From positions 105,766-156,564 of the forward strand of contig CAJFTT010000044.1 in the NCBI GenBank assembly GCA_904420005.1: DNA of 50,799 nucleotides. The letters run 5' to 3'. Source of the DNA: Candidatus Tabaqchalia intestinavium (GTDB taxonomy: Bacteria; Bacillota; Clostridia; Oscillospirales; CAJFTT01). Shown one piece after another: positions 1 to 47,440 of the stretch (positions are counted from its first letter, which is position 1; every line of letters begins with the position of its first letter). The notes beneath the pieces were generated by a model, which was not told where the DNA came from, did no database searches, and saw only the letters and a list, made by a program, of their open reading frames with translations. Position numbers and translations under genes: made by a program.

Positions 1-1310
1 TTGGAGAACGAGGTGCTGGTGAGCAGGGTCGATTCCAAAAACGCCGTCGAGCCGCTGACCAGCACGCTCGAGCGCTGCGACTGATTGTTGATGGTGCGCT
101 CCTTCGTGCCGATGACCATCACGTCGAACGGGCCGGACTCGTCGTCCTCGCTGGTCGTGCCGGCGGCGGATTCCATCAGCTTGGCCGTCGAATAAGTCGA
201 GAGCACCGCGCTGGCCGAGACGCCGTTGCGGATCTCCTCCGCGGCGTAAATCGGGCGCGCCATCGGCGAGGCGAGATTGAGGCTGCTCGAGGACAGCTCC
301 GTGGAGAAAATGTCGGAATTATTATAGCCCACGCGCGGATACAGGATGTTGGAATTATAATAGTTGCCCGCGTCGGTCTCATAGACGATGCCGTCGCCCA
401 CCGTGATGCCCCACTCCTCCAGGAACATCTCGAGGTTGGGCAGGTCGGGGGTGTTGGGCGTGAGGAACACCATCAGGCCGCGGCCGAGCTGCTCGCCGTT
501 CTCGAGGAATTCGTCGAGCCTCTTCAGCTCCTCCTGGGTGAAGTCCGTCTTGGGATTGACGATCATGAGCACCGTCACATCCTCGTCGATCTCCTCGTCG
601 GTGCCGAGGTTGATGCCCTGGACGACGGAATAGACATTGCTGCGGATGAGGCTCTTGACCGTCGAGTCGTCCGCTGTCTGCAGGAAGCCTTCGTTATGTC
701 CGGTGACCAGGCCGATGGCCATCTGGTTGCCGGTATTGAGGTAGAGGATGGCCGAGGAAATGACCTGCTCGACCTTGCTGATGTCGTAAGTATATTCGCT
801 GTAGGTCGTCTGGGAGAAGAAATCATTGATGCTCACATGGCGGAAGTTCGTCACCTTCCCCTCCTCGGGCTGCTCTTTGGTCTGGATGATGACGTCGCCC
901 AGCGCAAACTCCTCCAGCTCGTACTGGGAGGTGAAGTTGACGTCGTCGAGAAGGCTCTGGTTGAAGGTCAGCGAAACCTTCCCGTTGCTCTTCTGCTCGA
1001 ATTCGCGCATGACATAGAGCGCCTGGCGGGCCTGATAGGATTCCTGCACGCCGGAGCTGGCTGTGAAATACACTTCGTCCATCAGCACGATGATCTCGAT
1101 CTCCTGCGGCATATTCTGCAGGTATTCGACGGTGTTGTTCTCCAAATGGAACAGGTTCTCCTCCGTCAGGTCAATGCGCAGCGGGTATCGATCGACCAGG
1201 ATGACGGCGATGGCGTTGATGAAGATGACCACCGCGATGAAGATGGCGGTCAGCGCCGTCGCGATGGAGCCGTATTTGAGCGCCTGTTTGTTCAGCTGCG
1301 GTTTTTTCAT
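1..1310 (-). CDS. GldG-like auxiliary protein of an ABC exporter (partial)
   Basis: The frame is open from an ATG at 1310 to the left edge, so the C-terminus lies outside the window. The N-terminus (MKKPQLNKQALKYGS) is basic and followed by a hydrophobic helix at about residues 15-38. A long extracytoplasmic region follows, with a motif like those of the GldG/ABC_transp_aux family (VILVDRYPLRIDLTEE, then a VTGHNEGF segment). Members sit beside an ABC-2 permease and ATPase and are thought to form an exporter or a surface-assembly complex; the substrate is unknown. It is the third gene of a minus-strand operon, 52 nt after the permease. The family call is by recognition; the function in this organism is inference. 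Confidence 0.75.
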   Translation of the reverse strand, partial: MKKPQLNKQALKYGSIATALTAIFIAVVIFINAIAVILVDRYPLRIDLTEENLFHLENNTVEYLQNMPQEIEIIVLMDEVYFTASSGVQESYQARQALYVMREFEQKSNGKVSLTFNQSLLDDVNFTSQYELEEFALGDVIIQTKEQPEEGKVTNFRHVSINDFFSQTTYSEYTYDISKVEQVISSAILYLNTGNQMAIGLVTGHNEGFLQTADDSTVKSLIRSNVYSVVQGINLGTDEEIDEDVTVLMIVNPKTDFTQEELKRLDEFLENGEQLGRGLMVFLTPNTPDLPNLEMFLEEWGITVGDGIVYETDAGNYYNSNILYPRVGYNNSDIFSTELSSSSLNLASPMARPIYAAEEIRNGVSASAVLSTYSTAKLMESAAGTTSEDDESGPFDVMVIGTKERTINNQSQRSSVLVSGSTAFLESTLLTSTSFS

Positions 1311-1362
1311 TGGTGTGACCATTCCTTTCGCAGTTACTCCGTGCGGATGCGGCCGGGCGCTC

Positions 1363-2070
1363 TCAGGCCCAGCGGCGCTTTTCCAGCGCGCGCACCGTCA
1401 GGAAGATGAAGACCGTCGCCACGCTGAGGTAATAGATCACGTCGGCGTAGCTGAAGATGCCGACGGAGAAGTCCTGGTACCGCGAAAAGAGGGAAGCCGC
1501 CAGGATGATCTGGGACACGATCTCCGGCAGGCCCGACAGCGTGGAAAACGACTGCAGGAGCAGCAGCATCAGCGCCACGCCGAAGGTGACGACAGCGGCG
1601 ATGATCTGGCTCTCGGTGAGGTTGGAGATGAACATGCCGATGGCGATCATGGCCGCGCCGACGAGGATCATGCCGAAGACGTTGCCGATGATGACCAGCG
1701 TGTCCACGCTGGCGAAGCTCGCGAGCGTGAGCGCATAGACGACTGTGATGGAGATGGCCACGAGATAGACCGTCATCGCGGCGAAGAATTTGCCCAACGT
1801 GATGGACAGCAGGCCGACCGGCGCGGTCAGCAGCGCCTGATCGGTTTTGTTGCGTTTCTCATCGGCCCAGATCTTCATGGTCAGCAGCGGGATGATGAAC
1901 ACCACGATCTGCTGAAACATGCTGAAAAACGAGCTCATCTCGGCCGAATAGGCCGTGATATTGGTCATGAAGAAGAACACGCCCGACAGAAACAGCACCA
2001 CCGCGATGAAGGTATACCCCGTCGCGGAATGAAAATACGACTTGAGCTCTTTCCTGTAAACCGCGCCCAT
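1363..2070 (-). CDS. ABC-2 type transporter permease (GldF-like)
   Basis: A 235-residue integral membrane protein starting MGAVYRKELKSYFHSATGY, the usual N-terminus of ABC-2 permeases in gliding-type or Nos-like exporters. About six hydrophobic segments are visible (near residues 18-40, 60-80, 95-120, 135-160, 165-185 and 205-228). The ATG at 2070 is chosen because it overlaps the TAA of the upstream ATPase gene by one base (TAATG), which suggests translational coupling. An upstream in-frame extension lies entirely inside the ATPase gene and is not credible. It presumably forms the membrane channel for the ATPase encoded just upstream. The transported substrate cannot be told from the sequence. 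Confidence 0.85.
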   Translation of the reverse strand: MGAVYRKELKSYFHSATGYTFIAVVLFLSGVFFFMTNITAYSAEMSSFFSMFQQIVVFIIPLLTMKIWADEKRNKTDQALLTAPVGLLSITLGKFFAAMTVYLVAISITVVYALTLASFASVDTLVIIGNVFGMILVGAAMIAIGMFISNLTESQIIAAVVTFGVALMLLLLQSFSTLSGLPEIVSQIILAASLFSRYQDFSVGIFSYADVIYYLSVATVFIFLTVRALEKRRWA

Positions 2071-3083
2071 TACTGCGCCGCCCCCTTCCGTTTGCCGCCC
2101 TTTTGCCGGGCGCCTTTGCCCGCCGGCCCCTTGCCGGCGTCGGGCTGCTCGCCCTCCTTGGCCGTCAGGCGCAGGAAGATGTCCTCCAGGTTGAGCTCGC
2201 TGTTGCGCAGGCCCATGAGCGGCCATTGGTTCTCGGCGAGCATGTCGAACATTGCGCGGCGCACGTCGAGCTTCTCGTCGGTCTCGACGAGGAAGTCCAC
2301 CGTGCCGCGCTCCTTGATCCCCTGCAGCTCGACCTTCTTGACGCCGTCGAGCTCGCGCAGGCGGCGCAGCACCTGGTCGGACGGGCCGGCGACGCGCACG
2401 GCCAGGCGGCTGCCGCCCATGAGCTTGGCGGACAGGTCGTCCGGCGTGTCGTCCGCGACGAGGCGGCCCTCATTGATGACGAGGATCCGGTCGCACACCG
2501 CCTGCACCTCCGAGAGGATATGCGTGGAGAAGATGACGGTATGCTGCTTGCCGAGGCTCTTGATGAGGTTACGGATCTCGATGATCTGCTTGGGGTCGAG
2601 GCCGACCGTCGGCTCGTCTAGGATGAGCACCTCGGGGTTGCCGATGAGCGCCTGCGCCAGGCCGACGCGCTGCTGGTAGCCCTTGGACAGGTGCTTGATG
2701 ATCCGCCCCGCCACGTCGCTGATCCGCACCAGGTCGCAGATCTCCTGCAAATGCGGCCCGCGGCGCAGCGAAACCTTTTTCAGGTCATAAATGAAATACA
2801 GGTAATCCCGCACCGTCATGTCGGGATACAGCGGCGGATGCTCCGGCAGGTAGCCGATCCTGGCCTTGGCCCTGTTCGGCTCGGTGAGGATGTCGCAGCC
2901 GCCGATGCTGACGGTGCCGGACGTCATGGAAAGATAGCCCGACAGGATGTTCATGGTGGTGGTTTTCCCCGCGCCGTTCGGGCCGAGGAAGCCGAGGATT
3001 TCCCCATCCTCGACGCGGAAGCTGATGTCGTCGACGGCCGTTTTGCTTCCGTACCGTTTGACCAGGTGGTTGACTTCGATCAT
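2070..3083 (-). CDS. ABC transporter ATP-binding protein (GldA-like)
   Basis: A 337-residue ATPase. Walker A is GPNGAGKT at residues 34-41, the ABC signature LSKGYQQR at 132-139 and Walker B/D-loop LDEPTVGLDP from 155. The C-terminal about 120 residues carry the accessory domain typical of ABC-2 exporters (GldA, NosF, CcmA-like) and end in a low-complexity basic/Gly-Ala tail. The ATG at 3083 has GGAG 7 nt upstream and gives the standard family N-terminus MIEVNHLVKRYG; a longer frame to 3119 adds no conserved residues. It is the first gene of the operon with the permease and GldG-like protein. It energises export of an unknown substrate. Confidence 0.9.
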   Translation of the reverse strand: MIEVNHLVKRYGSKTAVDDISFRVEDGEILGFLGPNGAGKTTTMNILSGYLSMTSGTVSIGGCDILTEPNRAKARIGYLPEHPPLYPDMTVRDYLYFIYDLKKVSLRRGPHLQEICDLVRISDVAGRIIKHLSKGYQQRVGLAQALIGNPEVLILDEPTVGLDPKQIIEIRNLIKSLGKQHTVIFSTHILSEVQAVCDRILVINEGRLVADDTPDDLSAKLMGGSRLAVRVAGPSDQVLRRLRELDGVKKVELQGIKERGTVDFLVETDEKLDVRRAMFDMLAENQWPLMGLRNSELNLEDIFLRLTAKEGEQPDAGKGPAGKGARQKGGKRKGAAQ

Positions 3084-3546
3084 AGCTTGACTCCATGCCT
3101 TTCCGGATTTTTTCGGCAAAAGGGCGAAGATTCCTTCTTGCCGGGAACAGAAATTGCGCAGTTTGCTACAATACCCATATCATAGCAGATATGGCGGTTC
3201 TGTATGTGAACAATGCATGAATTTGCAGAAACGAGGCAGAAAATCCTGTCCATTGTGCTGCATGCGGGCGGGGGAGCTCGCCATGACCGGCAGGGCCGCG
3301 CACGGCCGAGAACGGGAATCCGGCGGAGCGCAAGGGAACGCGGGGATATATTGACAATAAATCAATTTTCTGGTAAAATTTTTGTAAAAATAACGTCGCT
3401 TTGAAAAATCAAAAGCAGGCGCAATGCCTATTTCCTAACCATCCTGCATCCTCCGCCGCTGAAGCAACGCCCTGCGGAACGGCGTGTCAGCCTCGGAGCG
3501 AAAGCGGCAAAAACAGATTTCGTAATGATTTCTGGGGGGATTGCCT
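3084..3546. other. Divergent intergenic region
   Basis: This gap separates the minus-strand ABC operon from the plus-strand membrane protein gene and should hold both promoters. A strong plus-strand promoter is visible at 3351-3379. On the minus strand a TATGAT hexamer near 3181-3186 could be the -10 of the ABC operon, but I see no well-spaced -35. The region from about 3350 to 3440 is clearly AT-rich compared with its surroundings. No gene or repeat array is seen. Confidence 0.5.
3351..3379 (+). promoter_or_regulatory. Sigma-A type promoter
   Basis: A perfect TTGACA at 3351-3356 and TAAAAT at 3374-3379 are separated by 17 nt in an AT-rich stretch. The promoter points toward the membrane protein gene at 3547 and leaves a leader of roughly 160 nt. 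Confidence 0.75.
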
Positions 3547-4161
3547 ATGAAAAAATGGCAGAAGACCGCGCTGTGGACGGCCAACCTGGTGCTGGGGGTC
3601 GTGGTGCTGGCCGGGGTTTTGTTCTGGCTGTATCTGCTTTACATCGGCGGGCAGGAGGAGCGGCCGCAGGGCAACCCGGCGGATTTCTCCCGCAGCGGCC
3701 GGCAGGCCATCGCCGAGGCGCTGGGGGAGCGCTTCCTCGCCGCGCCGGAGACCGCCCCCTTCGAGGCGCTCGGCCCGGTGACGGCGGCGGCCGGGGCGGC
3801 GGAATATCTCGTGGAGCGCGACGCGCGCCTGCTGCGCTGCGAGGCGACGGTCGAGTACACGCCCGATTCGCTGCGCTTCGTGCAGCTTACGCTTGAATAC
3901 GGCTTCCTGCGCGATCCCGACGTGAAGCAGCCGGGCGTCGCCTGTCTCACACTGCCGGCGGGGGAGGAGTGGCAGCTGACGGTGGAGTTTGCCGAGCGCG
4001 GCTGCGCCGACAGCTTCCTGCGGACGAATCCGATGGAGGGGGCGGCCGTCGTGCCCGCCCCGCCGGACAACGCCGCGGTGCGTAGCCTGCTGCCGCCGGG
4101 CGCGGGCACGGCGGTGGTCCGCTTCGACGGGACGGAGGCAACCGTCGTCCCCGCCGCATGA
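3547..4161 (+). CDS. Hypothetical single-pass membrane protein
   Basis: A 204-residue protein starting MKKWQKTALWTANLV. One hydrophobic segment (about residues 8-32, including VVVLAGVLFWLYLLY) follows a basic N-terminus, so the rest (about 170 residues) is probably outside the membrane. That part is acidic and Ala/Pro-rich, with no motif I recognise. The ATG at 3547 is chosen because GGGGGGA ends 6 nt upstream; an in-frame TTG at 3541 is too close to that site. It is the only gene behind the promoter at 3351-3379, and a hairpin at 4340-4373 follows. I do not recognise the family and offer no function. Confidence 0.7.
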   Translation: MKKWQKTALWTANLVLGVVVLAGVLFWLYLLYIGGQEERPQGNPADFSRSGRQAIAEALGERFLAAPETAPFEALGPVTAAAGAAEYLVERDARLLRCEATVEYTPDSLRFVQLTLEYGFLRDPDVKQPGVACLTLPAGEEWQLTVEFAERGCADSFLRTNPMEGAAVVPAPPDNAAVRSLLPPGAGTAVVRFDGTEATVVPAA

Positions 4162-4339
4162 CGGCGGAGGGCGGGCGGCCTTCTCCCGCCGGTCTGCGCG
4201 CCGCGCGCCTGCCGCCGGTTTTCGAGGAGAATCCCGGCGACAGGCTCCCGCCGCAGGCCCATGCGTCCCGTCGTCTGAGCCGCCTGCTGCGCACACCCTT
4301 CTCACCCGCTCCCGGGGCTTTTCGCCCCGGCGGCAGAAA

Positions 4340-4373
4340 GGAGCGCCGCAAAGCCTGTGCTTTGCGGCGCTCC
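4340..4373. terminator. Bidirectional terminator-like hairpin
   Basis: A perfect 15-bp stem (left arm 4340-4354, right arm 4359-4373) with a 4-nt loop CTGT lies between two convergent genes. It is followed by CTTTCT on the minus strand and only weakly T-rich sequence on the plus strand. It sits 17 nt after the stop of the isomerase-like gene. Confidence 0.7.
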
Positions 4374-4389
4374 TTGGCAACTGCGCCTT

Positions 4390-5883
4390 TTACAGGACGA
4401 CGGTTTCGATCCCCAGGAACCTGCCGGTCTTTTCAAACAGGCCGGCGTTATGCCCCACGGACAGCGCGCAATGATGCGTCGGATATTCCGCAAACCATCT
4501 GTCCATATAGGTATCCGGGTCATACTTGAATCTCGCGGGGGTCTGGGTATTGCCGATGGCCATGATCGGGCCGTCGGTGGCCTCCGCTTCGCTGATGATG
4601 AGCTTTAGGCGGCCGTCTATCGTCTGGGTGACGTTCAGCGTGGTGATCGGCCCCGCTTTAACCTTTGCCTCCACGGAAACCCCGGTTCCCTTTTTGCCGT
4701 GGTAAACGCCCATCCCCCGCAGGATCGGCTTCCCGTCCGAAATGGACACGTGGAACGGTCCGTCGTGACCGATCAAAATCGTCCCGTCCACATAGTCCGT
4801 CACGACGATCTCGCAAAAGCTCCCGCCCGTTTCCAAAATATCGCAGATCTTCATGGCCAGCGCCGTCTTGATGTCGGCCTCGCCCGCGCAGGGGATCCCT
4901 CTGGCCGTCAGCAGCGAATGCCCCACGATAAAGCCGCTTTGCAGCTTTTCATAGTCGTTGCCGGCCGAGCCGTGGTAATAATAGGCCAGGGCGTCCAAAT
5001 CATAGGCCCGGACCATCCGCTCCTGCGCTGCCGCCACGGTAGCCGACCACCGCAGCTGCTCGTCCGTCGGCCTTTTGACAAGGGGATCGGACGGGGAATC
5101 CCCGGAGATCTCAAACATGTCGTGGATTTCTTCCAGCTTTTGTGCAATCTCCGCCGGCGTGACCTGCCTGACCATGCGGTCCAGGTCGCACATCTCCAAA
5201 ATCTCCACATGGATCTGGCTCTGCGCCTGCAGCATCGTGAAGTCGCTGTACATGTCCAGCATGCCGCTATAATTTCCGCCCAGGAAGCCAAAGCGCGCTT
5301 TTTTCAGGGTGGCCGCCACTTTCGCCGCCAGGATCCACTGGGAAATCTCCCTCCATGCCCGGACGGCCTCCGGCCGGGCGGCGGTGTTTTCATCGGTCAG
5401 GGAGATTGCCGGGGTTTTCTCCAGGCCCAGCAGGCCGTTCACGACGGTGTATTCGATCCCCGCCCGGTGAAACGCGTTGGCGATTTCCGGCGCGACGCAC
5501 GCGCCGCAATGGGCCAGCCATTCGCCCGTCGTGGTTTTTTCGTAGTTGATCCGCGCGGCCGGCTGCAAATTCAGCACGATCACCGGCGCCCGGCAGCGCT
5601 GATGCACCGGCAGAATCGAGCTGGAAGTGGCGTACGTGCCGCAATGGCAAAAGAGGATGTCCACATTCTGGGCGTTAAACCATTCGCCGGCCGCTCTGGC
5701 TGCGGTTTCGTCGTCCACCAGCCCGAAATTTTTCACCTCTCCCCAGGCGCGCATCTTCTGGGCGATCGCTTCTCCATAGGAGAGCAGGCGTTCCTTCAGC
5801 CCGGGGAACTGCGTCCAATAGGATTTCAATCCGCAGGTGTATAAGCCAATGCGGGGCGTGACTGCGTCTTTTATCTTTTCCAC
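4390..5883 (-). CDS. L-arabinose/L-fucose isomerase family protein
   Basis: A 497-residue protein, the usual length of L-arabinose isomerase. Family features are visible: AGEADIKTA (Glu335), the segment GGSFCEIVVTDYVDG (Glu358), IGHDGPFH (His373) and a C-terminal HH pair (about 470-471). These correspond in order to the metal-binding Glu/Glu/His/His of AraA. A GTG at 5883 is the start, with AGGAGG 6 nt upstream. No araB, araD, sugar transporter or sugar regulator is adjacent, and the sequence is divergent, so the substrate may not be arabinose. If catalytic, it would interconvert an aldose and ketose in the cytosol using a divalent metal. Family call good, substrate uncertain. Confidence 0.75.
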   Translation of the reverse strand: MEKIKDAVTPRIGLYTCGLKSYWTQFPGLKERLLSYGEAIAQKMRAWGEVKNFGLVDDETAARAAGEWFNAQNVDILFCHCGTYATSSSILPVHQRCRAPVIVLNLQPAARINYEKTTTGEWLAHCGACVAPEIANAFHRAGIEYTVVNGLLGLEKTPAISLTDENTAARPEAVRAWREISQWILAAKVAATLKKARFGFLGGNYSGMLDMYSDFTMLQAQSQIHVEILEMCDLDRMVRQVTPAEIAQKLEEIHDMFEISGDSPSDPLVKRPTDEQLRWSATVAAAQERMVRAYDLDALAYYYHGSAGNDYEKLQSGFIVGHSLLTARGIPCAGEADIKTALAMKICDILETGGSFCEIVVTDYVDGTILIGHDGPFHVSISDGKPILRGMGVYHGKKGTGVSVEAKVKAGPITTLNVTQTIDGRLKLIISEAEATDGPIMAIGNTQTPARFKYDPDTYMDRWFAEYPTHHCALSVGHNAGLFEKTGRFLGIETVVL

Positions 5884-5929: not shown

Positions 5930-6077
5930 TTTCGTGCCCGCGGCGGGCAACGGGAAACACGGTTGTTCGGGGCCAGGCACGCACCCGGCTGCGCTTTCCC
6001 CGCTCACGGGCGCGCGCCTTCGTGGTTTAAGCTGATTTTCCGCGCCTCATGGCGTTCCCCCTGCCCCGGGTACGCCT
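5930..6077 (+). repeat. CRISPR-like 61-bp array A
   Basis: Three degenerate repeats begin near 5930, 5991 and 6052, exactly 61 bp apart. The clearest core is TTTCCCCGCTCACGGGC (from 5995). The repeat is about 28 nt, and the intervening segments of about 33 nt share nothing with each other. The segment between the second and third repeats (6019-6051) recurs in array A' at 6477-6509. Confidence 0.55.
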
Positions 6078-6595
6078 GGCTGCCCCCCGCGGGTCTGTAT
6101 CGGCTTTGCGCCCGCGAAAATGCCGGCCCCGGCGGCGGGCGGAAATCGCAGGGGGCCGGGGCGCCGCGAACCGGCGGACAGTCGCGCGCCGGCGGATGAC
6201 CGCGCGCCGCGTGCAGGGGAAGCGTCGCCCGTGTCCGTTCCGGCCGCCGCGCGCGGGGCCTTGCCCCCGAGGGCAGGCTGGTTGCTTTCTTCTATTAACC
6301 AGATTATAACAAGGGGATCTCGCGAAGTCAACGCCCGGGGTGGGCAGGGGAAACGGCAGTTTTGTTTACAAAGCACGCCGGTCCGCCGCGCTTTCCCCAG
6401 CCTCGGGCGCGCCTGCAAAGCACAATTCCCTGCGGCGCAGGCGGGCGAGTGTTTTCCCCGCTCGCGGGCGCGTGCCTTCGTGGTTTAAGCTGATTTTCCG
6501 CGCCTCATGGCGCTTTCCCTGTCCCCGGATACGCCTGGCTGCCCCATCCGCGGGTCTGTATCGGCTTTGCGCCCGCGAAAACGCCGCGGCCCCGG
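5990..6595. repeat. Direct duplication of a ~140-bp intergenic segment
   Basis: Positions about 5991-6130 and 6449-6595 are near-identical (shared landmarks CCTTCGTGGTTTAAGC, GGGTCTGTATCGGC and CTTTGCGCCCGCGAAAA), with offset 458-461 bp and a few substitutions and one small indel. Each copy holds two repeats of the 61-bp array and the same spacer-like segment. The second copy runs straight into the duplicated mnmE fragment. Confidence 0.85.
6388..6537 (+). repeat. CRISPR-like 61-bp array A'
   Basis: Three repeats begin at 6388, 6449 and 6510, exactly 61 bp apart. Cores are CTTTCCCCAGCCTCGGGC, TTTTCCCCGCTCGCGGGC and CTTTCCCTGTCCCCGGA. The TTTTCCCCGC...GCGGG pattern is the one seen in type I-E CRISPR repeats. 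No leader or cas gene is nearby. Confidence 0.6.
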
Positions 6596-8288: not shown

Positions 8289-8505
8289 GCGCCTGCGTCA
8301 GGCGCGCGGGGGTATTTTCCGTCCGGTTCTGCGATCCCTCCACGGCGGCGGCCTGCACCAGGCGCGTGGTGGGGATATTTCCGCCGCCAGCGCCGCAGCT
8401 GCCGGCAGACAGGCCCCTGCGCCAGGCGCGTGGGGACGTTTCTATCGCCCCAGTCGTGGTACGTATATTTGCGATCCCTGCGTCAGGCGCGCGTGGCCGT
8501 TTCCC
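8289..8505 (-). repeat. CRISPR-like ~61-bp array B
   Basis: Four repeats start at 8292, 8352, 8416 and 8477 (spacings 60, 64, 61). Each begins CCTGC, has the core CAGGCGCG (8300-8307 in the first) and ends with a G-rich part and TTTCC. On the complementary strand the order is GGAAA...CCCC...CGCGCCTG, similar to the other arrays. The array begins 33 nt upstream of mnmE. Between it and metY (8506-8817) I see only GC-rich sequence with no gene. Confidence 0.6.
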
Positions 8506-11163: not shown

Positions 11164-11254
11164 GGGGCCTTCCCGCCCGGCGCGGGGCTTCTCTTGGTCA
11201 AAGAATCCGCGAGCTGGAAGCGGCGGGGCCTTCCCGCCCGGCGAAGGGCTGCCC
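11164..11254 (+). repeat. CRISPR-like repeat pair (61 bp)
   Basis: Two copies of a repeat start at 11164 and 11225, exactly 61 bp apart. They share GGGGCCTTCCCGCCCGGCG (19 nt) and then GGGCT. A weaker TTTCCCGCC copy at 11117 is offset by only 52 bp. The rest of the 379-nt gap between the MinD-like gene and the MgsA-family gene holds a promoter at 11363-11391. Confidence 0.5.
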
Positions 11255-15391: not shown

Positions 15392-15690
15392 GCCTTCTCT
15401 TACGTAAGCGGGATGGCCTAAGGCCGTAGACGGGCAAGCCGCAGAAAAGAAGGCCTTCTCCCGCGCAAGCGGGACGGCCATTGCGTGCTTCCCCCATATC
15501 GCTGTGAATGGGGCTTCTCTCGCAGCGGGACGGCGACCCGGGCGGCGAGAGGGGGCGGACATCGGCGGCATCCCCAGCTCCGGGCGGAAGCGCGGGCGCG
15601 GCAAGCCCCTCTCCTGCGAAGGCGCCCACCTCCGTCCGGCTGATCGTGACGCCACAGCTGCAGCACCCTTCTCCCGCGAAGGGAGCCCTT
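15392..15690 (+). repeat. CRISPR-like ~60-bp array D
   Basis: Repeats begin at 15392, 15453 and 15512 (spacings 61, 59) and again at about 15605 and 15665 (spacing 60), with a possible decayed unit near 15567. Cores are CTTCTCTTACGTAAGCGGG, CTTCTCCCGCGCAAGCGGG and CTTCTCTCGCAGCGGG, then CTCTCCTGCGAAGG and CTTCTCCCGCGAAGGG. Each is a small palindrome, as in type I-E repeats. The 15088-15391 part of the gap holds no gene. Confidence 0.65.
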
Positions 15691-15930: not shown

Positions 15931-17727
<1,797 letters not shown>

Positions 17728-17858
17728 CGCGCCGGGCACGCCCCTATGAAAGCTGTCCTTATGACAATATTTTTTGTCTATTTTATCTATTTTTTGTCTA
17801 TTATTTAATCAAAATTTTAGATCATTACCCTATATATTTTTTGGAAGTAATTGGATAT

Positions 17859-17890
17859 AATAAAGGTACAATCATGATTGTACCTTTATT
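17859..17890. promoter_or_regulatory. Perfect 32-bp palindrome overlapping a -10 element
   Basis: Left arm 17859-17874 (AATAAAGGTACAATCA) is exactly complementary to the right arm 17875-17890, with no loop. A TATAAT at 17856-17861 overlaps its left end, and the lectin gene starts 30 nt after it. It could be an operator for a dimeric repressor or a hairpin at the 5' end of the transcript. Without a long U-run it is a less convincing terminator for aspS. Confidence 0.7.
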
Positions 17891-17920
17891 TTGTCAGCTT
17901 TAATTGAATAGGGGTGAAAA

Positions 17921-19033
17921 ATGAAGAAAACAAAAAGAAAAATGTTTAGTTTTTTACTATCCTGTTGCATGATGTTTGGTTCGTTTTCATTTTGCCTGCC
18001 CATTGTGCAGGTATCTGCTGCTTCCAATATACCCAATGGATATTATTTTATTAGGAATAAAGGGTCGGGTAAATATCTAGATGTACAAAACAGCAGTTTG
18101 GACTGGTTTACCCACGTAATACATTTTGAGTTTAATGGTGGACAAAATCAGCTTTGGGAAGTCGAGGATGGGGCGTCCGGCTATAAGCGGATTCGCAGCG
18201 CTTTGCATGAACATCTCTATATGGATATTCTCAATGGCTGGACGGATCCCGGGACACAGGTGCAGGTTTTCGGTAACTACGGCCCTGATTTGGCGAGTGA
18301 AAATTTTGAAATTGTTTCAAATGGAGATGGAACCTTCTGCATCAAAACAAAAAATTCTTCCAACGCGGTGGTATCCGCCGCGGCAAATTCGCAAGCCTGG
18401 CTTGCAACATATGATCCGGATAATGACTATCAAAAATGGTATTTTGAAGAAACCAAAACATATACATGGAGTTATAGTGACTATGATTCTGTCGGAACAT
18501 TTGGTGCAAGGGAAGGGCAATTTCATGTAAAGGAACATAATACGGAAAATGGTGAGCTAGAAACCGTAGCAAGCTTTCAGCTGGATGATGAAAACCTAGA
18601 ACAGCTTGCTCTATATGCTGCGGGGGAACACGAAGGGGCTCCAGGAAAACAATGTTATTTTACTTGCGACGTAACACATATCCCGCATAGTGAAATCGGT
18701 GTAGATCAATTATCCGCTACCATACTTGTTTCCAATCTTCCAAATCCGAAATTTGATTTTGAAAGCGACGGCGACTTGATTGATGATGGTTTTTATGAAG
18801 AAAGCGAAGTCGTCGCGCTGGGTACATTAGAGGCTGATACGAGATATTATATGATAACGGTTTGGGATGATTTCCGGGATGGGACGCTGATTGCGCAAGA
18901 ACATCAGTATGGTAGCATTGAGTGTTGCTTTGGCGTGAGTGCAAAATTTCCATTTATTGATGAATATAGTACAATTCATTATGGTACTGCCGTGGCAACG
19001 CATTATTTGGGCGGCGAAAACGGCCGGCCATAA
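17921..19033 (+). CDS. Secreted protein with ricin-type beta-trefoil lectin domain
   Basis: A 370-residue protein. The N-terminus is a signal peptide (basic MKKTKRKM, hydrophobic 9-32, cleavage near VSAAS at about 34). Residues about 38-178 form a ricin B-like beta-trefoil with GYYFIRNKGSGKYLD and the QxW-type motifs NQLWEVE and YQKWYFE. The C-terminal 190 residues have no motif I recognise. The role is probably binding of a carbohydrate outside the cell. The ATG at 17921 has AGGGGTG upstream. Codon use is AT-rich, quite unlike the flanking genes, which points to horizontal acquisition with the next two genes. Confidence 0.75.
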   Translation: MKKTKRKMFSFLLSCCMMFGSFSFCLPIVQVSAASNIPNGYYFIRNKGSGKYLDVQNSSLDWFTHVIHFEFNGGQNQLWEVEDGASGYKRIRSALHEHLYMDILNGWTDPGTQVQVFGNYGPDLASENFEIVSNGDGTFCIKTKNSSNAVVSAAANSQAWLATYDPDNDYQKWYFEETKTYTWSYSDYDSVGTFGAREGQFHVKEHNTENGELETVASFQLDDENLEQLALYAAGEHEGAPGKQCYFTCDVTHIPHSEIGVDQLSATILVSNLPNPKFDFESDGDLIDDGFYEESEVVALGTLEADTRYYMITVWDDFRDGTLIAQEHQYGSIECCFGVSAKFPFIDEYSTIHYGTAVATHYLGGENGRP

Positions 19034-19058
19034 AATTCGAAGCAAAGGAGGTCATTTC

Positions 19059-19634
19059 ATGAAAAAGATAATTATTGCGACTGCAGTAATTGCCGTACTC
19101 ACAGCAGCTTCCGTGACGGCACTGGCGGTTGGTCTTCAAGCAGACCCTCTTGACGGATTTGATAATGAAACGAAAACGTATATACTGCAAATGCGAGAAA
19201 AAAACGAGCAGCTTTCCGACCAAACGTGCCTTGAGGATATTCCCGCAACCATCACACTGCAGCAGCCTCTTTCTGCCGCGCAGCTTCAGCAATACCTGAT
19301 GCAGCATTCGATTGAGGCAAAATACGTCACAGCACGTATTGAAAGGCCGGACGGTGAGCGACTTACCTCGGCCGCAGCGCTGTCCAGCCATTCCCTTCAG
19401 GAATTGGAAAGCAGGTTGCAGCAGTTGGCTGGTGACGGTACATTCAAAGGATTTCTCAGTGTGCAGTGCTTTGTCGATGCTGTAGAAATTGAAGGCATAC
19501 AAAATGCAGAAGAAACGTTCCTGCTAGACACGGGCACGACTGGGGCCGCGGTTGCCTATTCGGCAGAGGAATCCTCCGGTTTCCCAACCGATCTCGCCTG
19601 GGAACTAGAAGATGCGCTTGCCAAGGAGGACTAA
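19059..19634 (+). CDS. Hypothetical secreted or membrane-anchored protein
   Basis: A 191-residue protein with an N-terminal signal peptide or anchor (MKKIIIATAVIAVLTAASVTALAV). The mature part is polar, Gln/Glu-rich and probably helical around residues 65-130. I do not recognise the family. The ATG at 19059 has a strong AAGGAGGT 8 nt upstream, 25 nt after the lectin stop codon, so it is the second gene of the island operon. The third gene starts 2 nt after its stop. Confidence 0.65.
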   Translation: MKKIIIATAVIAVLTAASVTALAVGLQADPLDGFDNETKTYILQMREKNEQLSDQTCLEDIPATITLQQPLSAAQLQQYLMQHSIEAKYVTARIERPDGERLTSAAALSSHSLQELESRLQQLAGDGTFKGFLSVQCFVDAVEIEGIQNAEETFLLDTGTTGAAVAYSAEESSGFPTDLAWELEDALAKED

Positions 19635-19636
19635 AT

Positions 19637-20032
19637 GTGCATTGGTTTTTGATCTTCAATACAGTATTCTTGATTCTTGTGTTCACAATTTTGACGGGGC
19701 TGGCGCTGCGGTTTCCCGTGTGTACTCAGCTGCGTAGCTGGCTGATGATCGTGAGCACATTGGCCTTTTTTGTGCTGACGGCGGTGTATATCCACGATGT
19801 TTATTTCATCCCCGTTGAGCCCGGAATTGGCAGGTCCGTCACAACCGTTATGGCTCTGCTTGCTAACACGGATGGTCATTTCGAAGCTACAAACGTGCAG
19901 ATGCGGGGAATTTGGTCTGGAGGGTGGCTGATTGTGTTTTCTGCAGCGTTGTTTGTGGTATCACTTGTTCTTAATCATCAGAAACGCAAAAAGATATCCT
20001 CTTCCGACATTCCCAGTACAGCTCAGAGATAA
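19637..20032 (+). CDS. Small membrane protein, three transmembrane segments
   Basis: A 131-residue protein with hydrophobic segments at about residues 4-25, 33-53 and 95-115, ending in a basic, Ser-rich tail (NHQKRKKISSSD). The start is the GTG at 19637, 6 nt after AAGGAGGA; an ATG at 19635 in another frame stops at once. The gene begins 2 nt after the preceding stop codon, so the two are probably translationally coupled. No family recognised. It may serve in export or anchoring of the two secreted products, but that is inference from position only. Confidence 0.6.
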   Translation: MHWFLIFNTVFLILVFTILTGLALRFPVCTQLRSWLMIVSTLAFFVLTAVYIHDVYFIPVEPGIGRSVTTVMALLANTDGHFEATNVQMRGIWSGGWLIVFSAALFVVSLVLNHQKRKKISSSDIPSTAQR

Positions 20033-20196: not shown

Positions 20197-20347
20197 GGGC
20201 GGACCGCACGCGCAGGGGATGAACTTCATCGGAGTTGGGGGCATGATGCTAGCGCTAGGGCGGGCCGCACGCGCGGGGGATGAACCGGCACACGGCTTGA
20301 CCGCCCGATGCGCCGGCGGGGCAGTCCGCCGGCGCGGGCATGCATGG
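20197..20347 (+). repeat. CRISPR-like array K with near-canonical type I-E repeat
   Basis: Two repeats starting at 20197 and 20258 (61 bp apart) share GGGCGG(A/G)CCGCACGCGC and then (A/G)GGGGATGAAC. A third, more decayed, starts at about 20318 (GCCGGCGCGGGCATG). The second, CCGCACGCGCGGGGGATGAA (from 20264), differs little from common type I-E CRISPR repeats (CCCCGC...GCGGGGATGAACC). It lies in the 529-nt gap between the island and the ThiE fusion gene, which otherwise holds only the terminator at 20429-20472. Confidence 0.65.
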
Positions 20348-26240: not shown

Positions 26241-26395
26241 ATTCCCTCCCGCCGGATCTAGGCCTCGGGCGCATCCTAATGTATAAACAAACTGGGGGTA
26301 ACGCCCATCTCTTCCCACCGATAGATCTAAACGTTGGGCGCATCCCCACGTATAAATAAACTGGGAACAACGATGATTCCCTCCCGCCGCTGGGT
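26241..26395. repeat. Tandem repeat with ~65-70-bp unit
   Basis: Units begin TTCCC(T/A)CC at 26242, 26312 and 26377. The first two full units share GATCTA, GGGCGCATCC (26267 and 26336, 69 bp apart), GTATAAA(C/T)AAACTGGG and AAC. The third is only the first about 12 nt. The unit differs in length and sequence from the 61-bp arrays and is not hairpin-centred. Confidence 0.75.
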
Positions 26396-26612
26396 CGGCG
26401 GCGTTTTTCGGGAGAGAAGCGGGCGGCCCGAGGCGGCCTTGCCGGGCGCGTCCCTGCGGCGGAGGGAAACGCGGCCGCAGGGACGGCTTTGCAAAACCCG
26501 TATCTTCCTCTCCCCGTCGAGGGTAGAGACCTGCCCGACCGAAGCGGGCGGCCGCGCGCCTATTTGGCGGATCCCCTCCGGATTTCCCCGGCGGCGCGCT
26601 GGTAGTATCGCG

Positions 26613-28050: not shown

Positions 28051-28387
28051 CCGGCCGCAGGCCTATGAGAGGGGAAGGACCGGCTGGTTTCGCGCCCTGC
28101 ATGCAAAGCCGGCCTCGTCCGCGCGAGAAAGGGGAGGGCCATCCCCGGCAGCCGGCCGAAGCGCTGCGCACGGCCGCACCTGTGCGAGAAAAGCGAGGGC
28201 CAGCGGACACAGCTGTATCATATCTGCGCCGGCCGGCCGCGTCCCCTGCGGGAGGGAGACGGCCCATGCTGGCCCGCAATCCCAACCATCGCGCAGGTCG
28301 CATCCCCTGCGGGAGGGGGAAGGGCTTTTCGGAGAACGCGGGGCACGGCCCTTCCAAGGCCGCGGCGCGGCGAGAGAGCGGGCGGTC
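28051..28387 (+). repeat. CRISPR-like 61-bp array E, six repeats
   Basis: Repeats begin with GGCC or GGTC at 28051, 28111, 28172, 28235, 28296 and 28358 (spacings 60, 61, 63, 61, 62). Each about 30 nt unit ends AGGGCC or similar. The fourth and fifth share TCCCCTGCGGGAGGG (28243 and 28304). The first three have GAGA(A/G) followed by a G-rich tail. Intervening segments of about 31 nt do not match each other. The array occupies the gap between rimO and pgsA. Confidence 0.65.

Positions 28388-30734: not shown

Positions 30735-30735
<1 letters not shown>
30115..30735 (-). CDS. recX: Regulatory protein RecX
   Basis: A 206-residue helical protein with the three-helix RecX repeats (RAARDKAMRLLGYRDHTAKELRDKLL, then ELGMVDDASYARRLAADLFSLKYYGVRRVRQELRRRGV). 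RecX inhibits or modulates RecA filaments. Its ATG at 30735 overlaps the TGA of recA (TGATG), so it is translationally coupled to recA. The 262-nt gap downstream to rimO holds GC-rich sequence with no clear gene. Confidence 0.92.
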
Positions 30736-31898
<1,163 letters not shown>

Positions 31899-32077: not shown

Positions 32078-32227
32078 CCTCCCGCGCGGCGGTTTGACCG
32101 GATAGAGACAAAAAACGGACTGTCCCCGCCCGCCGCGGGAAACCACGTCCGGCGGCGGCGACGGGCGCGGCGGTTTTCCCGCGGCCGGCGACGACTGGCG
32201 GCGCGGTCCCGCGGCCCCGGGGCGCCC

Positions 32228-32694
32228 GCCCCGCAGACGGGTAAAAGGGTCTGCGATACAAGGAGTTTTGCATCGCCAACAAGCGGGCGCCCCGCAGGCA
32301 GGGAAAAGGGTGCGGCCGTCCTCAATACGCACACTTCGATCTGGCAGCCTCCCCGCGGGCAGAAAAGAGGGATCCCGCCCGCTGAAGTAAAATCTGCCTT
32401 ATGGGCAAGCACGCCGTGGGCGGGGAAGGGGACCGACACCGGGAGAGCCCGCCGCTTTTTCGGCCGCCTCGGCCACCGGCCCCGCGCGTATCTCGCTTTC
32501 TGCGCGCGGAGGCTGGGGCTCGGGTTCAGGCGGGAATACACCCTGCGCCGTGCCCTTTCTCGCGCACGGGGCGGAGCGGGGATTGGTATTGCCACGACTT
32601 TTCAGAAGGTCCGCGGGCGCGCGGGGCTGGGCTCATTTTCTCGAAATACTTAGGGCGCAAACCGAGAAGGTCCGCGGGCGCGCGGGGCTGGGCC
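32228..32694 (+). repeat. CRISPR-like 61-bp array F, about eight repeats
   Basis: Repeats start at 32228, 32289, 32350 and 32410 (spacings 61, 61, 60), with cores CCCCGCAGACGGGTAAAAGG, CCCCGCAGGCAGGGAAAAGG and CCCCGCGGGCAGAAAAG. Two further units begin near 32491 and 32550 (CTTTCT at 32496 and 32555, 59 bp apart). The last two (32604 and 32665) are an exact 29-nt repeat separated by 32 nt. Beyond 32700 the pattern changes to about 47-48 bp (CCCGC(A/G)CG at 32721, 32768 and 32816). Confidence 0.7.
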
Positions 32695-32956: not shown

Positions 32957-34360
32957 TCAGGTGTTATAATAAATGGTAAGGGACGGACGGTTGCTGGTCT
33001 CCGAAGAGAACACGCGGTTGTGATCCTGCACCGTCGAGGAAGTGTAGCGGAACATAAGACCATAATTGGCCACCCCGTTCTGAATGCGCTGGATAGCCTC
33101 CTTCAGGTCGATGACGTACCGCTTATTACCCAGGTCGGGCTGGATATTTGTCCCGATAACATAGCTGCCCGAGGTGATGGTCGCAGGGCGGGTATTCCAG
33201 GTGAGCGCGCCGCTCGTCCAGTTCTGCGCGCAGGGATAGACGTTGATCGGGTGCGCGGTGGACGTCGTCGAGGTGAGGTTGAAGATCATATACGCCTGCG
33301 TGACAGTCGCGCCGGAGGGGAGAACCGGCCAGGTCTTGTTTTTGAAATACACTTCGTGCGATTTGCGCGTGCCGTTGACGCTGCGGTTGCCGAAATACAG
33401 ATAGCTCTCGTTGTTGTGCACCTGCGTGTCGCCGGGATAGGTATAGGTATCCAGAACGTTGGAGGAAGAATTGTCCACCGTGACGGACGGGTCGATGGTC
33501 ACCGGGTAAGCGCGCTGCTCGTCGAGCAGCCAGTCGCGGTCGGGCGTGAGGGTGAGCAGGTAACCGTCGTCCGTCGCGGTGAGCGTCTGTTCGATGGCGG
33601 TGCTGAATTCATCCTCGCTGTCGTACATATACGGCGCGGCGACCGTGAAGACCGTGTCTCCCGCAGCGTCGGCAAAAATGATGGTATCGTCGTCCTGCAG
33701 CGTGGCGGTCAGGCCCTCGCATTCAAACGTGACGGTGTAGGACGCGGGCGCGGCAGTCGACTCGAGCACGATGTCCTCTTTAACCGTACGCGGCAGCACG
33801 GTATATTGCAGGGAGGTGTCCCGCAGCAGCTCATCGAGCACCACCTTCGACATCGACAGGCCCGCCGTGAGCGCGTCGGCCTCCGCAGACAGCGCTTCCT
33901 GGGCGGCCACGACCTGCATAGAACGGTCCTGCGCGGCGGCGGACAAGGTCTGCACGCCCGTGGCGCTGATGCTCCAGGACAGCGTATAGCCCTCCGACTC
34001 CATCGTCACCAGCGCGTCGGCAGGATTCTCCGAAAACGCCACGTCATAAAGACCAGCGCGGTTGGTCAGCGTGGTATAGTCGGCTTCATCCGCCGAAGCG
34101 CGCAGGGTGTTGTTGATCTCCTTCCACACGCCATCCTCCAGGTAGTGAATGGGCTCGGGATACGACACCGCGAGATACGAACCGTCGGAGCACAGATAGT
34201 GCTTTTCGTATTCGCCACGCATGGAGATTTCCTCCCGCACGATCGTGGCCTCGCCAGAGAGAACGTCGCCAGTTTCCTCCGCGCTCGCGACGGGGACCGC
34301 CGCGAGAGAGAGGAACAGAGACAACGCCAGGCAAAGCGAAGCTTTGCATGCTTTTTTCAT
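32957..34360 (-). CDS. Secreted DNRLRE-domain surface protein
   Basis: A 467-residue protein with a signal peptide (MKKACKASLCLALSLFLSLAAVPVASA, cleavage near 27). Residues about 30-320 form an N-terminal region typical of large Firmicutes cell-surface/RHS-type proteins (YLAVSYPEPIHYLEDGVWKEI). The C-terminal about 150 residues are a DNRLRE beta-sandwich (VHNNESYLYFGN, AYMIFNL, WNTRP, VIDLKEAIQ). In many relatives such a unit precedes RHS repeats and a toxin; here the protein simply stops after it. Function unknown; probably exposed at the cell surface. The ATG at 34360 has AAGGAA upstream. Confidence 0.75.
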   Translation of the reverse strand: MKKACKASLCLALSLFLSLAAVPVASAEETGDVLSGEATIVREEISMRGEYEKHYLCSDGSYLAVSYPEPIHYLEDGVWKEINNTLRASADEADYTTLTNRAGLYDVAFSENPADALVTMESEGYTLSWSISATGVQTLSAAAQDRSMQVVAAQEALSAEADALTAGLSMSKVVLDELLRDTSLQYTVLPRTVKEDIVLESTAAPASYTVTFECEGLTATLQDDDTIIFADAAGDTVFTVAAPYMYDSEDEFSTAIEQTLTATDDGYLLTLTPDRDWLLDEQRAYPVTIDPSVTVDNSSSNVLDTYTYPGDTQVHNNESYLYFGNRSVNGTRKSHEVYFKNKTWPVLPSGATVTQAYMIFNLTSTTSTAHPINVYPCAQNWTSGALTWNTRPATITSGSYVIGTNIQPDLGNKRYVIDLKEAIQRIQNGVANYGLMFRYTSSTVQDHNRVFSSETSNRPSLTIYYNT

Positions 34361-34403
34361 GAACCGTTCCTTCTTTCTTTTTGCTTTTTTCGGCAGCCGC
34401 AGC

Positions 34404-34434
34404 AAGAAGGCCGCCCGCGCAGAACGGCCTTCTT
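34404..34434. terminator. Terminator-like hairpin upstream of the DNRLRE gene
   Basis: A 10-bp stem AAGAAGGCCG/CGGCCTTCTT (34404-34413 with 34425-34434) with an 11-nt loop. It lies 44 nt upstream of the DNRLRE start, so on the minus strand it would sit in that gene's leader. T-rich sequence after it is limited. Confidence 0.45.
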
Positions 34435-34680
34435 CCGTGACAGAACCGTTTTTTATCATAAACACGGGACGGCGCAAAAGATGCTGAAGCATGTCGAAAA
34501 AGAAAAAGATTTCCAATTTTGGGAGGAAATACCTCGAATTTTTCTAAACCGGCCGGGCGCGGCAACGTCTCCCGTTTCCTCCAAGAAGGCAAGGCGGCGA
34601 CCGGCGCGCCCGCAGGCTGACGGCGCACCCCCGGCGCGGTCAGGCGGCGCGCAATACGCACGACGGTCCAGCGGGGCGTG

Positions 34681-35478
34681 TCGGGAAGCCAGCATGCGAA
34701 CAGGGACCGCCTCCCGATGCGCCGCGCCCGGCCGGTCAACTGCGCACGCTCGCGGGGGCGGGGCCGCCATTGCCCCGCCCGCGTTGCCGCGCAGGCCGGG
34801 GAGGCACAATCGCGCAGGCGGGGAATGGCCGCGCCGCCGCGCTACGTCGCTCAAACCGGGCCGAAACCATTCTGCAGGCCGGGGACCGCCGTGGACGGCT
34901 TGTTAGGGGCACAGCCACGCGGGCAGGGGAGGCTCCGATCGACGCCGGCGCCAACGCCGCGACCGCGAGGTGCAGCCGCGCCGGTAGGGGATGCTCCCAC
35001 ACCAGCCGGGCGGACGCGCGGCTGGTGTGGGAGCGGCTGCGCGGGTAGGGGATGTCCTCGTTGTCTTTCTAATTCCCGTTCTACCATTTCGGCACAGCCG
35101 CACGGGTGGAAATACCCACAGGGTGGGTATCCCCCTGCGCGCCTCACCCAGGCACGGCCGCCCGGGTGAAGGATGCCTAAGTCACCGATTCGCCGCCGCA
35201 AAACAAGCAGGGGGCGCAGCCGCATGGGCGGGGGATGCCCAAGGGCGAGGTCATGCGCCTCCTGTTCGGGCTGGGCGCGGCCGCATGGGCGGGGGATGCC
35301 CGGCGATTCTGTCATCGTCGGACAAATCCGGGGCGGCACAGCCGCATGGGGGTACCCTACAAACTACAGCAGCCGGAACCAATCGAATACGGCAGCGCCT
35401 CGCGGATGGGGCTGTCTGCTATACCGCGTTTTGCCCCGAGGCGGGCCGCAGGCACGATCGCGCGGGCTGGAGGCCCGG
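34681..35478 (+). repeat. CRISPR-like 61-bp array G, about 13 repeats
   Basis: Units are seen at about 34681, 34742, 34803, 34864, 34908, 34969, 35031, 35092, 35152, 35214, 35275, 35336, 35397 and 35452. Apart from two shortened steps (44 and about 55 bp), successive spacing is 60-62 bp. The repeat consensus is about 28 nt: GCACAGCCGCATGGGCGGGG then GATGCCC; the units at 35214 and 35275 are nearly identical (GCCGCATGGGCGGGGGATG). The intervening 31-33-nt segments are all different and several are much less GC-rich (for example 35060-35090). No cas gene or leader is visible; no gene lies between 34361 and 35844. Confidence 0.75.
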
Positions 35479-42722: not shown

Positions 42723-43463
42723 AATGCAGTGTCCTTTCCTGCCGGGCGGCAGATGAAAATGAAACGCCGCGCGAACGCGGCGCAGGGCCGCCGGAGAACA
42801 GCGGCCGGGCCGGCGGTGAGAAGGGGCGACGCGGGAGAGGCGGCGCGGACAAGCTCGCACTAGGCGACGCGCGCCCGTGTCCGCGCCCACACCCGAGGAA
42901 CGCAGTCCCCGCCGTCCGCCGAGGCGCCCCAAGGCGCGGCGCCAGAAGCGCTTTTGCGAGAGCGCTGCCCTTTGCCCATCGGGGAGGCGGAGATTGGTCG
43001 AACCATTGTCGAAGCGTCTACGCGACCCCTTGTCCACCGGGGGAATCCCCGCCGTGGTTCCGGCGGCGCGGACGCGCAGGCGTGCTCTCGATGCTGGCCC
43101 GAGCGACCAAGACCCCGCGGCCGGCGGTGCCGGCGCGCGGGCGTGCCTGCCGCAGGAGTGCCAGCCGCTGCTGATTTCAAAAAACACAGCACCGGGCTGT
43201 TCCTCGCGCGCGGGAACGCCGGTTTCTCCTCGCAGTGACGCCGGTTAAGCATGATTCGGCAGCCCCGTTTCTCGCGCGAATACCGGAACTTTTCCCTCCC
43301 GCTGTTCGCGCTGCGCTTGCCGCCGTCCGCGCGCTCGCGAACGCCTGCCTATGGCGAAGAAGGCTGCCAGCGCGAGAGGCGGGCCGCCTCCACTCGCCGC
43401 GGGGTCGGCGGCGGGGAAGCGCGGGCCGTCCGGGCCGCGGATACCGCGGCGCAGGGCCGAGGG
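42723..43463. other. 740-nt GC-rich gap, possible decayed 61-bp repeats
   Basis: No gene. CGCTGCCCTTTGCCCATCGG (42963) and CGCGACCCCTTGTCCACCGG (43021) are 58 bp apart and look like a pair of decayed repeats. TTCCTCGCGCG (43200) and TTTCTCGCGCG (43268) are 68 bp apart. Neither is strong enough for a firm array call. Confidence 0.35.
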
Positions 43464-47024: not shown

Positions 47025-47235
47025 GGAACGGCCTCCTTTCTGAAATTTCTGCGGGCGCGGGCGCCTGACCGGGCCTGCGGCGGTTTTTGCGCGCGCCGGG
47101 CGGCGGCGTGCAATGCGGCGGGCCCGTGGGCCGCGCGACCGGACCGACGGCAGCGAACCGGACGAGCGGCAGCTTCCCCTGCATGCCAGCCGCCAGCCAA
47201 TGCCGGCGCGCGGGCCTGCGGTGAAGGTTGGTCTC

Positions 47236-47440
47236 GCCCCGGGCCGCCCGGCGGGAACGGGGCAGGGGCCTCGAGCAGCGGCGCGAGCTGAAGGCGCACC
47301 CCTGTATGCCCGAAGCGAACGTATCGCCTTTATCTCCAGCGGCGCATTCGGCACAGCGCCCCGGGCCGCCCGGCGGGAATCCTCCAACGGGGCGCGCCGC
47401 AGCGGGGAGCTGGGTACGCCCGGGCCGGACCGAACCCGCG
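47236..47440 (+). repeat. CRISPR-like ~61-bp array I
   Basis: Units at 47236, 47295, 47358 and 47417 (spacings 59, 63, 59). The first and third share an exact 22-nt core starting CCCCGGGCCGCCCGGCGGGA and are 122 bp apart, twice 61. The second (CCCTGTATGCCCGAAGCGAAC region) and fourth (CGCCCGGGCCGGACCGAACC) are more decayed. A separate exact 17-mer CCGCGCGACCGGACCGA occurs at 47134 and 47493. Confidence 0.55.

Follow-up and report, generated by a model that had tools for sequence, protein, structure and literature searches.

A one-spacer CRISPR-like unit beside recA and a genome-wide scatter of intergenic units in Candidatus Tabaqchalia intestinavium, probably formed by off-target type I-E spacer integration

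The birth of new arrays of clustered regularly interspaced short palindromic repeats (CRISPRs) is an open question, and off-target insertion by the Cas1-Cas2 integrase is one proposed source, of which, to our knowledge, only a handful of putative natural examples exist. Casposons, which are Cas1-solo transposons, also show Cas1-type integration with target duplication. Neo-CRISPR loci, generated by off-array spacer integration by the type I-E Cas1-Cas2 of Escherichia coli, were reportedly described by Nivala, Shipman and Church in 2018 (Nat Microbiol 3:310), and are said to have been detected under Cas1-Cas2 overexpression, with a few putative natural cases besides. Non-canonical integration by the overexpressed E. 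coli Cas1-Cas2 is cited in PMC11788318 and PMC9456107. Here, we analyzed a stretch of 50,799 nucleotides (nt) of Candidatus Tabaqchalia intestinavium (contig CAJFTT010000044.1, positions 105,766 to 156,564; hereafter the window), in which two identical 29-nt sequences enclose a 32-nt spacer in the intergenic region between recA and a gene with a CBM96 domain. We consider it very probable that this focal pair is a one-spacer neo-CRISPR unit produced by off-target type I-E Cas1-Cas2 integration, and that it belongs to a genome-wide set of such units. As in the E. coli neo-CRISPR loci, a spacer-sized fragment lies in a repeat-like site off the array, with the target duplicated and no leader; unlike them, the units found here are natural, number dozens in one genome, are of graded age, and are accompanied by naturally empty sites and by one insertion that a transposable element has multiplied. 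A literature search on neo-CRISPR loci and de novo array genesis, with most subscription papers outside its reach, returned no report of a natural case on a genome scale.

The two focal copies (32604-32632 and 32665-32693; AGAAGGTCCGCGGGCGCGCGGGGCTGGGC) agree letter for letter, their match is maximal at 29 nt, and their starts lie 61 nt apart, exactly as an earlier note made from the sequence alone had described. Among direct repeats separated by at most 400 nt, the pair is the longest exact one in the window, and several of the next-longest are likewise 61 or 122 nt apart. The intergenic region that holds it is 1,058 bp long, and the target sequence folds as a hairpin, ((.((((((....)))))).)). 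On neither side does the sequence one 61-nt step away from the pair resemble the focal repeat, and the units at 32222 and 32283, built on another repeat, fall off the 61-nt register of the pair; thus, the focal locus is a single repeat-spacer-repeat unit, and not the last two units of an array, as had been proposed. The reading of its dimensions as those of type I-E arrays stands insofar as the 61-nt unit lengths are right and type I-E genes occur in the genome, but the pair is not part of a CRISPR array. Identical copies are rare among the units, being found elsewhere in one other full-length unit (L097:7627) and one 25-nt unit (L026:3488), where L-numbers denote the examined stretches and the genome itself is G000 (L026 on its contig C3 and L041 on C18). 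Given its identical copies, the focal unit is among the youngest of its kind, which agrees with the age that the earlier note had assigned to it, though not with its placement at the young end of an array. Searching the curated RNA families of Rfam, CRISPR repeat families included, gave no match at gathering score in the window, L026 or L041.

In an attempt to place this unit in its genome, we examined 1.40 Mb, window included, of the 2.13-Mb assembly (71 contigs, 81.8% complete) for segments that match at a fixed distance (lag) in at least 20 of 28 positions, with genes predicted from a hexamer model that had learned from open reading frames with ribosome-binding sites. In intergenic DNA, 62 matches were found at lag 61 compared with a background of 1.33 (sd 1.62) per lag, and in coding DNA there were none. 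The matches are spread over 37 intergenic regions, 31 of them at least 500 bp long (185 regions reach this length); a single pair was found in 25 of the 37, some host sites carry several units, and many units are degenerate. No comparable peak was seen around recA in 80 other genomes (1.19 Mb), where the few hits were a local tandem repeat and AT-rich DNA. This control has a lower GC content (43% versus 61%), and the stronger control is the internal one, namely the other distances and the coding DNA of the same genome. Candidates at lag 61 or 62 in another genome, G026 (L122), were set aside, as on reading they seem to belong to another dispersed repeat of intergenic DNA. Plain tandem duplication, slippage during replication or faulty assembly could be considered for such pairs, given that GC-rich intergenic DNA often contains repeats in two copies and that many short ones occur in the window. 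However, the repeat covers just 28-29 of the 61 positions and ends sharply on both sides, lag 61 is the sole distance that stands out, coding sequence has no match and the recA control no comparable peak, and a single assembly error cannot account for dozens of loci that vary in divergence and lie on many contigs; we therefore regard this explanation as very improbable. As a separate observation, the called coding density is only ~76%, with 185 of the 942 intergenic gaps in the examined DNA exceeding 500 bp, and units too old to be recognized may contribute to this surplus of long gaps.

To define the unit itself, identity at distance 61 was averaged over 46 pairs. It was 0.83 within a box of ~28 positions, whose edges are 1-2 bases wide, and 0.26 beyond the box. 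Because the pairs were chosen by match, part of the height of the box follows from the selection, which does not explain its width or the random flanks. At single loci, the commonest block length was 28, with 29 next. This sharply edged box and the block-length peak indicate that a unit combines a duplicated stretch of 28 nt with ~33 nt of unrepeated DNA, which are the dimensions of type I-E spacer acquisition. Like the canonical type I-E arrays of two genomes of the same order (G183 and G228), the units have a 61-nt period, a 28/29-nt repeat that is palindromic and a unique 32/33-nt spacer; unlike those arrays, their repeats are site-specific, they mostly hold one spacer, and they are scattered, leaderless and away from cas genes. 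The repeats of separate loci are barely alike, with a similarity of 13.4 of 29 positions versus 12.1 for GC-matched random intergenic sequence (best of ten alignments), although pairs inside one locus can be identical. What separate loci do share is C at positions 6-11 mirrored by G at positions 19-24, independently of orientation (z = 8.2 for positions 5-11, a value reached by 0 of 400 GC-matched samples). This mirror pattern is the inverted repeat of type I-E repeats, and in this phase the targets resemble a CRISPR repeat without common descent. The repeat set used here excludes paralogous regions in L098 and the terminal tandem array of L033, whose spacer is conserved.

The same palindrome phase in all repeats would also be expected if one or more true type I-E arrays had spread to many sites, by copying or relocation, before their repeats diverged. 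Such decay would accommodate the many degenerate units and the near-canonical repeats at L026:3758-3905, which are 21/29 identical to the G183 repeat. We consider it unlikely, in view of the lack of any leader or flank in common among the host regions, of the 25 of 37 regions with one pair only, and of between-locus repeats that are close to random while within-locus pairs can be identical. The surroundings of the near-canonical repeats (L026:3482-4120) form an array with two interleaved repeat families, in which three near-canonical I-E repeats (GCCTTCCCCGCGCCCGCAGGGGTGATTCT) lie between two copies of another repeat; these outer copies are 183 nt (3 units) apart, which looks as though a unit within the array had itself become a target.

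Direct before-and-after comparisons are provided by a miniature inverted-repeat transposable element (MITE), a dispersed element of ~0.24-0.33 kb whose termini are inverted repeats (TACCCTCGGTGGACAAAGGG...CCCCTTGTTCACCGAGGGTA), which has dozens of copies in this genome and none in any of 38 relatives (39 genomes searched). At L032:8922-9010, a lag-61 unit lies inside a MITE copy, and both flanks continue as MITE. About 49 nhmmer hits cross the hairpin GCGTTTTCCTCGCCCGCGGGCGAGCGCC and have this target once, without an insert of such size, whereas L032 has the hairpin twice around 33 nt of non-MITE sequence (28+33). The two L032 copies are 27/28 identical to each other and 26/28 and 25/28 identical to the MITE consensus, and both carry two common substitutions that are not in the consensus, which indicates that the local hairpin of L032 was duplicated. 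At another MITE site, an insertion of ~60 bp is accompanied by a 29-nt duplication, clearest in L096 (25/29, counted by eye). This second insertion is present in L064, L096 and L087, and also in L061 and L254, there with a deletion, but absent from L025, L067, L093, L036 and L032. Since several carriers have it in common and other copies lack it, it is most simply read as one insertion that would then have been copied by transposition.

Insertion with target duplication is thereby seen directly at both MITE loci. The comparisons exclude array decay at these two sites, as the L032 repeat is MITE sequence that is single in the ~49 other hits, and make it, by class, unlikely for the focal locus as well; the focal site would have arisen by the same route as the MITE insertions. 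The MITE copies also show de novo insertion with target duplication in place of the recent repeat duplication within an array that the earlier note had suggested. Old insertions in L092 and in a diverged MITE copy of the window were considered as further proof and rejected, because their repeat copies are too diverged (13-14/28). Separately, a MITE copy at L059:3908-4282 has ~120-140 extra bases with a lag-61 pair inside, which could be two further units. This genome appears to hold dozens of units of graded age together with natural before-and-after pairs in a transposable element, which lets one read directly how targets are chosen and how arrays grow and decay. A CRISPR-type insertion amplified by transposition is seen here, and the genome also suggests that integrating spacers can act as a mutational force that shapes the DNA between genes.

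As to the agent, contig C18 encodes the type I-E interference proteins Cas3, Cse1 and Cse2 (TIGR01587, TIGR02547 and TIGR02548), followed by a cas7 whose family match covers the first third only and breaks off in AT-rich DNA, 86 bases short of the contig end. These last 86 bases occur nowhere else in the assembly, and for this reason an insertion in cas7 is possible. The start of the same contig is a repeat common to ~10 other contig ends. In the usual I-E order, cas1, cas2 and cas6e lie downstream of cas7, and with cas7 cut by the contig end, cas1-cas2 would fall in the missing part of the assembly. The focal unit is on a different contig from these genes and has no adjoining cas genes. Cas1-Cas2 is the likely agent of the insertions, given the two lengths, the phase of the palindrome and the I-E operon in the genome. 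In the proposed mechanism, a type I-E Cas1-Cas2 integrase would insert one 32-33-nt fragment into a palindromic, GC-rich intergenic site outside a CRISPR array, with the 28-29-nt target duplicated on both sides of the insert; the same event would take place at dozens of other intergenic sites, some of which would take several units, and most units would then decay. A different, undescribed integrase or recombination process that makes ~33-nt inserts with a 28-nt target duplication would be compatible with the failure to find cas1 or cas2 in the assembly and with spacers that have no known source. We judge it quite unlikely, as both lengths and the inverted-repeat phase match type I-E acquisition and a type I-E operon is present, cut by the contig end. 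Casposons share target duplication and, as proposed here, Cas1-type integration, but they are kilobase elements with terminal inverted repeats carrying cas1; a casposon was ruled out by the ~33-nt inserts, which differ between loci, and by the lack of Cas1 in the assembly. The Cas1 proteins of four other genomes (G001, G002, G013 and G015) were not accepted as type I-E, because 66-nt units and the lack of I-E Cas7 point to other types.

Several observations weigh against off-target Cas1-Cas2 integration as the source of the units. The focal locus itself has no known empty site; the assembly, 81.8% complete and with a contig ending within cas7, contains no cas1, I-E cas2 or cas6e; the inverted-repeat enrichment is modest when scored by pairing alone (z = 2.3); no protospacer was found for any spacer tried in phage records and IMG/VR; and dispersed units are lacking in the other sampled I-E genomes of the order (G183, G228 and G109; 120-140 kb each). 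In these samples, arrays lie near cas genes, and the ordinary arrays of G183 and G228 have a 61-nt unit. Something special to the lineage studied here is therefore needed, and as far as sampled, the dispersal is a feature of this lineage; its cause may perhaps be, speculatively, a loss of leader-dependent targeting. We put forward, tentatively and with somewhat less than even confidence, that the integrase of this lineage lost or never had such targeting and treats GC-rich intergenic palindromes, the MITE hairpin included, as CRISPR repeats, so that CRISPR-like loci would be continually born and decaying genome-wide, enlarging intergenic regions, with some copied on by mobile elements. For the recA-CBM96 intergenic region, no synteny partner was found, the top-ranked RecA among named genomes being 71% identical, and the nearest relative, of the same family, lacks a type I-E Cas7 and has 45% GC across the 99 kb sampled.

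Regarding the inserts, the focal spacer has no further copy in its own genome by DNA search and no match in phage records or IMG/VR. Concatenated spacers gave chance-level matches only against phage records, and eight exact or back-translated spacer patterns were not found in IMG/VR. The spacers of two further young units lie at L097:7656-7687 and L032:8950-8982. The inserted fragments would be foreign under off-target Cas1-Cas2 integration. Since Cas6e recognises its own repeat, the private repeats of the units are probably not processed by it, and the units are more likely to be by-products than working memory.

Within the window, 28-nt matches were scanned at every distance from 30 to 199, giving 13 clusters at lag 61 compared with a mean of 0.26 per distance, an excess well outside chance expectation. 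The clusters lie at 8.4, 11.2, 15.4, 20.2, 28.1-28.2, 32.2, 32.6, 34.9-35.2 and 43.1 kb, with two further clusters at distance 122 near 6.4 and 47.2 kb, and their repeats vary from place to place (Table 1).

Table 1. Features of the focal unit, its neighbourhood and related loci (window positions unless an L-number is given)
Feature	Location	Strand	Basis or remark
Repeat copy 1 of focal unit, 29 nt, hairpin-forming	32604..32632	.	exact match to 32665-32693; fold
Inserted 32-nt "spacer" of focal unit	32633..32664	.	single copy in own genome
Repeat copy 2 of focal unit	32665..32693	.	exact match
recA, flanking gene	30735..31898	-	PF00154, E=2.9e-142
Gene with C-terminal CBM96 domain, other flank	32957..34516	-	PF24517, E=3.1e-08
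Older separate array in the intergenic region of the focal unit, 3 degenerate units	32222..32371	.	lag 61, other repeat
Degenerate array, ~8 units	34906..35361	.	lag 61, consensus near GGGCGCAGCCGCATGGGCGGGGGATGCCC
One-spacer unit	20197..20285	.	repeat 26/28 identical, ...GGGGATGAAC end like type I-E repeats
Degenerate unit pair, possibly within a longer array from 8289	8411..8503	.	lag 61
One-spacer unit	11164..11250	.	repeat 24/26 identical
Degenerate one-spacer unit	15392..15479	.	
Two degenerate unit pairs	28110..28323	.	lag 61
Degenerate one-spacer unit	43060..43146	.	
Exact 23-nt pair	47235..47379	.	distance 122, two unit lengths
Diverged MITE copy, extra DNA at hairpin, candidate old insertion	5945..6250	+	
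MITE copy	26377-26515	-	
MITE copies	L064:1630-1952; L025:1-261; dozens of other places		
Type I-E cas3-cse1-cse2, then partial cas7	L041 (G000:C18) 420-5768		

Three minor features of the window were also recorded. A 33-nt spacer-like segment, TTCGTGGTTTAAGCTGATTTTCCGCGCCTCATG, is present twice with related flanking repeats, ~460 nt apart (5991-6079 and 6449-6537). In the large array, one spacer-like segment is itself a near-perfect palindrome (CCCACACCAGCCG...CGGCTGGTGTGGG; 34995-35034). The region 17500-20000 is of low GC, 42-50% compared with 60-73% around it, and is perhaps foreign DNA.
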